DNA from: Hyphomicrobiaceae bacterium
Lineage (GTDB): Bacteria > Pseudomonadota > Alphaproteobacteria > Rhizobiales > Hyphomicrobiaceae
Length of the DNA: 64,000 nt
Reading direction: 5' to 3'
Assembly (NCBI GenBank): GCA_025359185.1
Contig: JANYHF010000007.1
Location: forward strand, 62,001-126,000
Part shown: piece after piece, positions 21,153 to 61,792 of the stretch
Numbering within the stretch: the stretch's first letter is position 1
How the letters are laid out: the number at the start of each line of letters is the position of its first letter
Notes under the pieces: model-generated
The model's database searches: none
Seen by the model: the letters and a program-made list of their open reading frames with translations, nothing else
Told to the model about the DNA's origin: nothing
Program-made: the position numbers and the translations under genes

Positions 21153-22835
21153 ATGCGCATTCTGATCCTCAACCCGCCGCACGAATCCATCGGCTCGCGG
21201 ATGCCCGGCGAAATGCTGCCACCGCTCGGCTTGCTGGCCATTGGCGGCCCACTGATCGACGACGGCCACGACGTCCGGCTCATTGACGGCGACGTCAACA
21301 ACCTTGCGCCTGAGGTAATCCTCGATCAGGCCATCGCCCATGCGCCTGACGCCGTGCTGATCGGCCACAACGGTTCAACCTCCGCGCATCCAACCATCGT
21401 CCTTATGTTGCGCGGCTTGCGACACTTGTTCCCCAAGGCGTGGATCATCTATGGCGGCGTGTTCCCGACCTACCACTGGCGCGAATGCCTCGAAGAATGC
21501 CCCGAGGTGGACGTGATCGTGCGTGGCGAAGGTGAGGAGACGGCGCGGCGGCTGATGCGGGCGCTGGAGCAGCCAGCGCCGCAACGCTTTCCCGCCCTAC
21601 CCCCATCCTGTCCTTCTCCCCTCAAGGGGGAAGCGACGCCTGGCTCACGAGAACTGGCAATGAGTTCGCATTCAAATCATCGCGGCCAGCGTCCTCTCCC
21701 CCTTTGCGGGGGGGAGACGGAGAGGGGGGTAGCAGTGGCTTCGATTTCTTTGGATTCGATCAACGGCATCGCCTTTCGGCGATACGGAGAACCCTTTGCC
21801 ACCCCGCCCGCCCCGATGATCCAGAACCTCGATGCCTACCGCATCGGCTGGGAGCTGATCGACCACGCCCGTTACTCCTACTACGGCGGCAAGCGCGGCG
21901 TGGTGGTGCAGTTCTCGCGCGGTTGCCCGCATCTGTGCAGCTATTGCGGCCAGCGCGGCTTCTGGACCCGCTGGCGGCACCGCGACCCCAAGGCCTTCGC
22001 CGCCGAACTCGGCCGCCTCCACCGCGAGCACGGCGTCACCATGATCTCCTGGGCCGACGAGAACCCGACCACGTCGAAGAAGGTGTGGCGCGAAGTGCTG
22101 GAGGCGATCATTGCGCTAGACATCAAGGTGACGATGATCGCCACTCTGCGCGCCAGCGATATCGTGCGCGACGCCGACATCCTGCATCTTTACCGGAAGG
22201 CGGGCTTCGAGCGCTTCCTGATCGGCATGGAGCATACAGACGAAGCCACCCTGGCGAAGGTGAGAAAAGGCAGCACCACCAAGACCGATCGGCAGGCCAT
22301 ACAACTCTTGCGCCGGCATGGCATCCTGTCGCTCTCTTCTTACGTTGTCGGCTTCGAAGATGAAACGGATGCCGACTATTTCCGCGCCTTGCGTCAACTC
22401 ATCGCCTATGACCCGGATCAGATCATCACCCTCTATGTGACACCGCACCGCTGGACGCCCTTCTTTCGCGAGGCCCGCGACCGCCGCGTCATCCAGACCG
22501 ACCGCAAACGCTGGGACTACAAGAACCAGGTGCTCGCCAACTGCCACATGCCAGCCTGGCGGATATTTTTGTGGATCAAGTGCATCGAAGTGCTGGTGCA
22601 GACGCGGCCCAAAGCGCTGGCGCGTACCTATTTCAACCGCGACCCGGCAGCGAGCCACGGCATGCGGTGGTATTCGCGGATTGGCAAAAGGGTATGGCTG
22701 CACGAGATCTGGTGGTTCTTGTTCCGTGACCGGCGAGTGACGGATGGGCCGACGCTGGAAGAGTTCTGGGGTACGCCGGGGGATGCGGGGCAGGAGGCGA
22801 TGGCGGTGGGGAAGAGGGAGAAGGAGGCGGCGTGA
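21153..22835 (+). CDS. B12-binding radical SAM protein, BchE-like
   Basis: 560-residue protein. Residues 1 to about 130 form a cobalamin-binding fold (PPLGLLAIGGPLIDDGH, YGGVFPTYHW, VRGEGEE). CPHLCSYCGQ near 254-263 gives the CxxxCxxC iron-sulfur motif, followed by DPKAFAAELGRLHREHGV, WADENPTT and FLIGMEHTDE. Order and wording follow BchE, the anaerobic Mg-protoporphyrin monomethyl ester cyclase, but no other bch gene is nearby, so another oxidative or methylating reaction is equally possible. About 45-55 residues between ALEQP and SINGIAF are foreign to the family and are encoded by a palindromic DNA element (21597-21731). GGAG precedes the ATG. Confidence 0.82.
   Translation: MRILILNPPHESIGSRMPGEMLPPLGLLAIGGPLIDDGHDVRLIDGDVNNLAPEVILDQAIAHAPDAVLIGHNGSTSAHPTIVLMLRGLRHLFPKAWIIYGGVFPTYHWRECLEECPEVDVIVRGEGEETARRLMRALEQPAPQRFPALPPSCPSPLKGEATPGSRELAMSSHSNHRGQRPLPLCGGETERGVAVASISLDSINGIAFRRYGEPFATPPAPMIQNLDAYRIGWELIDHARYSYYGGKRGVVVQFSRGCPHLCSYCGQRGFWTRWRHRDPKAFAAELGRLHREHGVTMISWADENPTTSKKVWREVLEAIIALDIKVTMIATLRASDIVRDADILHLYRKAGFERFLIGMEHTDEATLAKVRKGSTTKTDRQAIQLLRRHGILSLSSYVVGFEDETDADYFRALRQLIAYDPDQIITLYVTPHRWTPFFREARDRRVIQTDRKRWDYKNQVLANCHMPAWRIFLWIKCIEVLVQTRPKALARTYFNRDPAASHGMRWYSRIGKRVWLHEIWWFLFRDRRVTDGPTLEEFWGTPGDAGQEAMAVGKREKEAA
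21597..21731. repeat. Palindromic element inserted in frame within the radical-SAM gene
   Basis: The segment starts with CTACCCCC and ends with its mirror GGGGGGTAG. Each arm contains a further small hairpin (CTCCCCTCAAGGGGGAAG on the left; CTCCCCCTTTGCGGGGGGGAG on the right). The span is 135 bases, exactly 45 codons, and is open throughout in the host frame. The encoded Pro/Gly/Ser/His-rich stretch interrupts an otherwise well conserved protein. The base pattern resembles the intergenic palindrome at 61684-61776. Exact ends are uncertain by a few bases. Confidence 0.6.
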
Positions 22836-60722: not shown

Positions 60723-61643
60723 TCACTTCGTGGCAGCACGGCTGACCTGCATTTTGCGGCCGGCAGCGACGATCGCCACCACCAGCAGCGCAAAGCTGAT
60801 CTCACGAAGGCTGATGGTTTCGCCGGTAAACAGCGCGGCACCGGCCAAAGAGACAAAGCACTGGAGCAGTTGCACCTGGCCCACCTTGGCGACACCGCCG
60901 AGCGCCAGTCCTTTGTTCCAGAAGAAAAAGCCAATCAGCTGGCTGCCGAACGCGACATAGAGGAACGACGCCCAGGACGGCCAGGAGGCGGCAAGGTTGA
61001 CGTGGGGGGAGAGTACGAGCAACAGCACGGCGAGCACCGGCAACGACAGCACCAGCGCCCAGCAGATGACCTGCCAGCCGCCCAGCGAACGTGACAGCGC
61101 ACCGCCCTGCGCATAGCCGATGGCCGCCGCAACGATGGCACCGGCCAGCAACAGATCGGCCACGCCGAGCCCGGCATTCGAGAACGCGCCCTCGACCGCT
61201 GCAAACACCAGGACCGCAGCGCTGCCTGCCACGCTGCACAGCCAGAAGCCAACGGATGGCCGTTCGCCTGCAAACAGCACACTGGCGACGGCGGTGGCCA
61301 GCGGCAGCAGGGCCAGTACGATGGCCCCGTGGCCTGCGGGAGCCGTTCGCATGGCAAGCGTTGAGAGGACCGGGAAACCGAAAACGACCCCCGCCGCAAC
61401 AATGGCGAGTTTGCCGAATTGCTCGCGGGTCGGCAGGGGCCGGGCCGTCCACCAGAGCAGAGCCCCCGAAACGAGCCCTGCCAGAACAGCGCGCCCAAGG
61501 CTCACCAGCAGCGGGTCAAGGTCGCGGACGGCAATGCGGGTGAGCGGCAGTGTCAGCCCGAATATCAGCACGCCAACGAAGCCGAGGAGGAGGCCGCGTG
61601 TTTCATCTTTGCTCTGACTATGGGAGTTCGTAAGCGAGGTCAT
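60723..61643 (-). CDS. EamA/DMT-family transporter
   Basis: 306 residues with about ten hydrophobic helices and two EamA repeats (LLGFVGVLIFGLTLPLTRIA near the start; VADLLLAGAIVAAAIGYAQG near the middle). ATG 61643 is chosen; a frame continuing upstream runs through the palindromic repeat and is not credible. Members export metabolites or amino acids, but the substrate cannot be told. Confidence 0.87.
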   Translation of the reverse strand: MTSLTNSHSQSKDETRGLLLGFVGVLIFGLTLPLTRIAVRDLDPLLVSLGRAVLAGLVSGALLWWTARPLPTREQFGKLAIVAAGVVFGFPVLSTLAMRTAPAGHGAIVLALLPLATAVASVLFAGERPSVGFWLCSVAGSAAVLVFAAVEGAFSNAGLGVADLLLAGAIVAAAIGYAQGGALSRSLGGWQVICWALVLSLPVLAVLLLVLSPHVNLAASWPSWASFLYVAFGSQLIGFFFWNKGLALGGVAKVGQVQLLQCFVSLAGAALFTGETISLREISFALLVVAIVAAGRKMQVSRAATK

Positions 61644-61683
61644 GTGCTCTGTCGCTCCCTCTTCCCACAAGCACGTCGCGCAG

Positions 61684-61776
61684 CGGGGAGAGGGTTGGGG
61701 TGAGGGGCAGCAACGAGCATGGAGCAAGCGGCGGCCCCTCACCCTAACCCTCGCCCCGTGAAAAACGGGGAGAGGG
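61684..61776. repeat. Intergenic palindromic cassette
   Basis: Arms at 61684-61707 and 61735-61758 match as inverted repeats at 22 of 24 positions around a 27-base loop. The second arm also forms a stem with 61766-61776 around the loop TGAAAAA (10 of 11 pairs). It lies between the stop of the methyltransferase-like gene and the transporter start. It resembles REP-like elements of alphaproteobacteria and the element inside the radical-SAM gene (21597-21731). It could act as a transcription terminator. Confidence 0.7.
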
Positions 61777-61792
61777 AACACATTCGCGAAGC

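Follow-up and report, generated by a model that had tools for sequence, protein, structure and literature searches.

An in-frame palindromic repeat of the CGTC-tagged type as the very probable origin of an extra linker in a BchE-family protein of a Hyphomicrobiaceae bacterium

Here, we describe a gene for a B12-binding/radical SAM protein from a Hyphomicrobiaceae bacterium that carries about 56 residues absent from its relatives. We are highly confident that this segment is one copy of a palindromic repeat of the CGTC-tagged REP type that is dispersed in the genome, tolerated here as an in-frame linker. The gene lies in a stretch of 64,000 nucleotides of contig JANYHF010000007.1 (the window; coordinates in Table 1). 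Its 560-residue product scores 524.6 bits against TIGR02026, the BchE equivalog model, which is above the curated cut-off of 481.35. A photosynthetic reaction-center gene (PF00124) was not found in this genome and thus BchE is used here as a family name that implies no function. The gene is present despite the lacking reaction center, and only four of 79 other sampled genomes have it at E <= 1e-80. The B12-binding domain (PF02310) covers residues 22-134 and the radical SAM domain (PF04055) residues 253-413, and the palindrome is inserted between them. The original prediction of a palindrome lying in frame in a conserved radical-SAM gene, between these two domains, is thus borne out.

Table 1. 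Features of the BchE-family gene and of its palindrome (positions within the window).
Feature	Position	Strand	Basis
Host gene, BchE-family B12-binding/radical SAM protein	21153-22835	+	560 codons, open throughout; TIGR02026, PF02310, PF04055
In-frame extra segment, about 56 residues (Q144-S199)	21582-21749	+	Orthologue alignment, absent from five; low-confidence coil in model
Left arm of palindrome, main repeat family member, ends in tag GACGC	21585-21640	+	Model match E 2.5e-17 in window; 53 genome blastn hits, most to left arm
Spacer between arms	21641-21687		Position between arm matches
Right arm of variant type, with its CGTC tag inward and an outer end of the TACCCCCCTCTC type	21688-21734	-	Eight other sites have same variant

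We have compared the protein with five orthologues, of which Xanthobacter provided one and genomes of the window genome's family the other four. One of these, L032 (same contig as L036), lies on a contig titled Hyphomicrobium sp. MAG, and the L032 genome belongs to the family of the window genome; no second member of the window genome's own genus is among the sampled genomes. All five orthologues cross the site directly, from ALE(x)3-4 to LxxIxGIA with a slightly variable first alanine-leucine, while the window protein reads ALEQPAP, then about 56 residues, then LDSINGIAFR. With the extra residues in none of the five, the segment is evidently an insertion, judged from the alignment. It is larger than the roughly 45 residues first proposed. 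The palindrome itself is also wider than the 135-base element predicted at 21597-21731 and spans about 150 nt (about 21585-21734). Of roughly 168 extra bases, this leaves 18 or so outside the palindrome, which may reflect divergence of the flanks or may be part of the element.

As RNA the palindrome folds into one long stem with an energy of -83.1 kcal/mol, compared to -60.4 +/- 4.3 kcal/mol for shuffled sequences (z -5.3), and as single-stranded DNA it reaches z -3.7; in both cases none of 200 shuffles folded as well. The arms pair over their whole length. Each arm also forms a small hairpin by itself; taken singly, these hairpins do not fold better than shuffles (z about -1). Both tags, GACGC and GCGTC, are kept in this copy, and the left arm folded alone pairs part of its tag. 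In an AlphaFold model built from six sequences, residues 143-197 have a pLDDT below 50 and are nearly all coil between better modelled flanks; given its overall weakness (mean pLDDT 57), the model serves only for this local contrast between insert and flanks.

The element is not alone in the genome. A blastn search against the 4.04-Mb genome gave 53 hits including the element itself, and a sequence model of the left arm found 76 matches at E <= 1e-5. A looser cut-off gave 73 sites across the whole genome, and in 51 of these an arm scores above 30 bits. Typically, a spacer of 20-50 nt separates two arms of about 55 nt each (GGCTTTCCCGCCCCACCCCCATCCTGTCCTTCCCCCCTCAAGGGGGAAGGGACGC ... GCGTCTCCTCCCCCTTGAGGGGGAGGAACAAGGTGGGGGTGGGGCGGGAAAGCC), and whole copies measure 100-165 nt. 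In most copies the arms read ...GGGGGAAGG-GACG and CGTC-CCTTCCCCC..., and most two-arm copies are head-to-head with the tags facing the spacer. The window copy combines the usual left arm with the variant right arm listed in Table 1. When the arm model was run against 29 relatives, matches at E <= 1e-5 came from five; these matches were short and weak, the best with E 1.5e-7, and hence the family appears essentially private to this genome or lineage, as sampled. The copies have inverted ends. No parent transposon of the family was identified, and in 33 full copies target duplications of 2-9 nt did not exceed those of shuffled sequences at the ends tried, the true ends being uncertain. Both the orthologue comparison and the search for a repeat family left the original prediction standing, and its interpretation of the insert is supported.

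Further in-frame copies, which the prediction had proposed to look for, were found as well. Within 1.96 Mb (48%) of the genome we have tested 69 repeat clusters for a frame that is open and coding-like on both sides. Five lie in frame in genes, namely the BchE-family gene and those for the CCA-adding enzyme, CobN, UvrC and PurL. The insert in the CCA-adding enzyme (48-49 residues) is absent from all 11 aligned orthologues and that in CobN (about 50 residues) from all eight. UvrC holds a two-armed, tail-to-tail copy; the linker that harbors it is variable across all relatives, so that absence is less telling there. A related palindrome type adds 29 residues to a molybdopterin oxidoreductase, absent from nine of nine aligned orthologues. 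A canonical CGTC-type pair (CGTCATGGTCGGGCCTGACCCGGCCATCCA ...) lies in frame in a DUF185/NDUFAF7-like methyltransferase (L271:7871-7961; contig C9:27871-27961), and at this position about 30 residues are missing from the solved homologue 1zkd. DnaE2, the error-prone polymerase, probably has a short in-frame unit of a related palindrome type. Besides the BchE-family protein, the conserved enzymes with similar inserts in this genome number at least three and probably seven. Three further candidates (C105:31817, C105:52058 and C64:6639) were dropped because their translated flanks read unlike real proteins; their coding scores were low, though positive.

Two of these genes deserve a separate remark. 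The DnaE2 gene holds a second self-complementary repeat in frame, of the GGGCAGCAGGCA...TGCCTGCTGCCC type (contig C22, about 79994-80122; L223/L224), with similar copies at C119:126911-127011 and C23:57344-57424. The local PurL (L066:31-2940; contig C6:12758-15667) has 970 residues, about 190 of them extra at the N-terminus, and shares only about 37% identity with the PurL of relatives. Because of this divergence its in-frame copy is only probable; the divergence itself suggests a horizontal replacement of this core purine gene.

How might such a linker have arisen? A head-to-head pair of hairpin units would have entered the BchE-family gene after its lineage split from the nearest sampled relatives. 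With a net length that is a multiple of three and the needed frame open, the ribosome would read through, and about 56 residues would form a flexible linker from one domain to the other. The repeat would move as DNA by means of some enzyme. In the full copies a mean of 2.4 of six frames is open, and the length is divisible by three in 15 of 33, so a random insertion has a fair chance of an open frame. Selection would have purged most insertions that break frame or fold, while those in linkers stayed. If coding density is assumed to be about 88% and about one in eight insertions keeps the frame, in-frame copies should be roughly as numerous as intergenic ones without further selection. In-frame copies make up only 5 of the 69 clusters, and hence most frame-preserving insertions would have been lost too, although this is an estimate and not a test.

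The inserts lie in linkers, and the arm is read in three different frames in the BchE-family protein, the CCA-adding enzyme and CobN. The best reading is therefore that they are tolerated selfish insertions filtered by selection and not a selected peptide; the use of three frames also rules out a conserved peptide like that of Rickettsia. The BchE-family protein is presumably made and active, with the insert neutral. A role for the insert, be it in the protein through the spacing of the domains or in the mRNA through a strong hairpin that tunes expression, seems improbable to us. The RNA stem is indeed very stable, REP inserts have been found over-represented in repair genes with functional effects suggested (PMC3733652), and UvrC and, probably, DnaE2 carry inserts here too. 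However, the proteins concerned are unrelated, their inserts differ in frame and peptide and are positioned in linkers, and the repeats are depleted from genes.

The insertion could also have damaged the gene, which would then be a young pseudogene that has yet to collect stops, and we consider this slightly more improbable still. The lack of a reaction center in the genome and the small number of sampled genomes that share this BchE homologue would suit such a history. Yet the 560 codons are free of stops and frameshifts, both domains are recognized, and insertions of the same kind occur in core genes such as that for the CCA-adding enzyme. Three other orthologues are as near to the window protein (66, 63 and 63%) as they are to the insert-free L032 (64, 61 and 60%), and pN is 0.16 compared to a pS of 0.64 between the window gene and L032. 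The host gene thus has no rate acceleration relative to L032 and, on these comparisons, is evidently free of decay and normally conserved. An ancient GC-rich linker that is self-complementary by chance, with no mobile element involved, is hardly credible: such linkers do differ in length among relatives, as in UvrC, but this one is missing from every orthologue aligned, its left arm matches the repeat family at dozens of other sites, and its fold far exceeds shuffles (z -5.3).

Repeats of this kind are already known. Di Nocera et al. (2013) reported CGTC-tagged palindromic repeats mainly from alphaproteobacteria, mostly as head-to-head dimers and with neither a dedicated transposase nor an association with RAYT (PMC3733652). 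Intragenic copies in conserved genes, including those for excinuclease (UvrABC) and DnaE2, were part of that report, and the Rickettsia elements RPE-4 and RPE-6 are CGTC-type REPs (PMC3733652). The original prediction took protein-coding palindromes to be known in Rickettsia but not as a rule in this group; given these 2013 data, they have precedents in alphaproteobacteria other than Rickettsia. The present repeat shares with these REPs the alphaproteobacterial host, the in-frame intragenic copies, the lack of a dedicated transposase, the predominance of head-to-head pairs (REP spacers are 20-100 nt) and the tag beside a hairpin; in the superfamily this tag is the tetranucleotide CGTC (or TGTC/CCTC), which flanks a short hairpin on one side and stays unpaired. 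It departs from families 1-4, which have a stem of 8-9 bp whose first two pairs are A-T and a three-base tail, mostly CCA; here stems start with CCTTCCCCC or CTCCTCCCCC and the tail is about 27 nt long and G-rich (ACAGGATGGGGGTGGGGCGGGAAAGCC). Since the stem-start and tail rules of the four families fail while tag, dimer layout and behavior are common, the repeat appears to form a new family among the REPs of this type. Most reported CGTC dimers add 20-30 residues, compared to about 56 in the window.

The RPEs, which a 2024 review singles out for the unusual frequency of their in-frame fusions and states to encode a conserved peptide (PMC10969869), likewise lie in frame in unrelated genes and are absent from orthologues. 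Unlike them, the present repeat has no conserved peptide, resides in a 4-Mb genome and is mostly intergenic. RAYT-mobilized REPs have a RAYT gene in the genome; a search for PF01797 gave no match in this 97% complete genome, while control genomes did match, and mobilization by RAYT was rejected. MITEs such as the ERIC and RU elements are also short and non-autonomous, with terminal inverted repeats and in-frame fusions on record (PMC10969869, PMC2759123). They may differ from the present repeat, for which no target-site duplication was detected at the ends tried and no parent transposon was identified.

Searches of the open-access literature gave no account of such repeats from this bacterial group. 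We see about equal chances for and against the wider proposal that a non-rickettsial alphaproteobacterium has a new, mosaic CGTC-type REP family with a Rickettsia-like protein load (about eight genes in half the genome), and that in-frame colonization by palindromes is a general alphaproteobacterial process. If true, this colonization would not be a peculiarity of Rickettsia. The principle is already known from Rickettsia and some other bacteria; the novelty lies in the family, in the lineage that hosts it and in the clean pairs with and without an insert, and intragenic CGTC-type repeats are extended to a Hyphomicrobium-related lineage. The CCA-adding enzyme, CobN, the molybdopterin oxidoreductase, UvrC and the BchE homologue are natural insertion experiments that mark where folds tolerate 30-56 extra residues, and the clean pairs make it testable whether inserts are only tolerated or change the protein.

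A second palindrome of the window, intergenic at 61684-61776, had been thought to resemble the insert. It belongs to another repeat type, and a marginal cross-model match (E 0.0014 or worse) rules it out as a close copy. The longest open reading frame of the adjacent EamA-like transporter gene (60723-61781, minus strand) starts upstream of this palindrome, so that an automated annotation might mistakenly extend the N-terminus of the transporter by the repeat; a more plausible start is the ATG that follows the palindrome (MTSLTN...).
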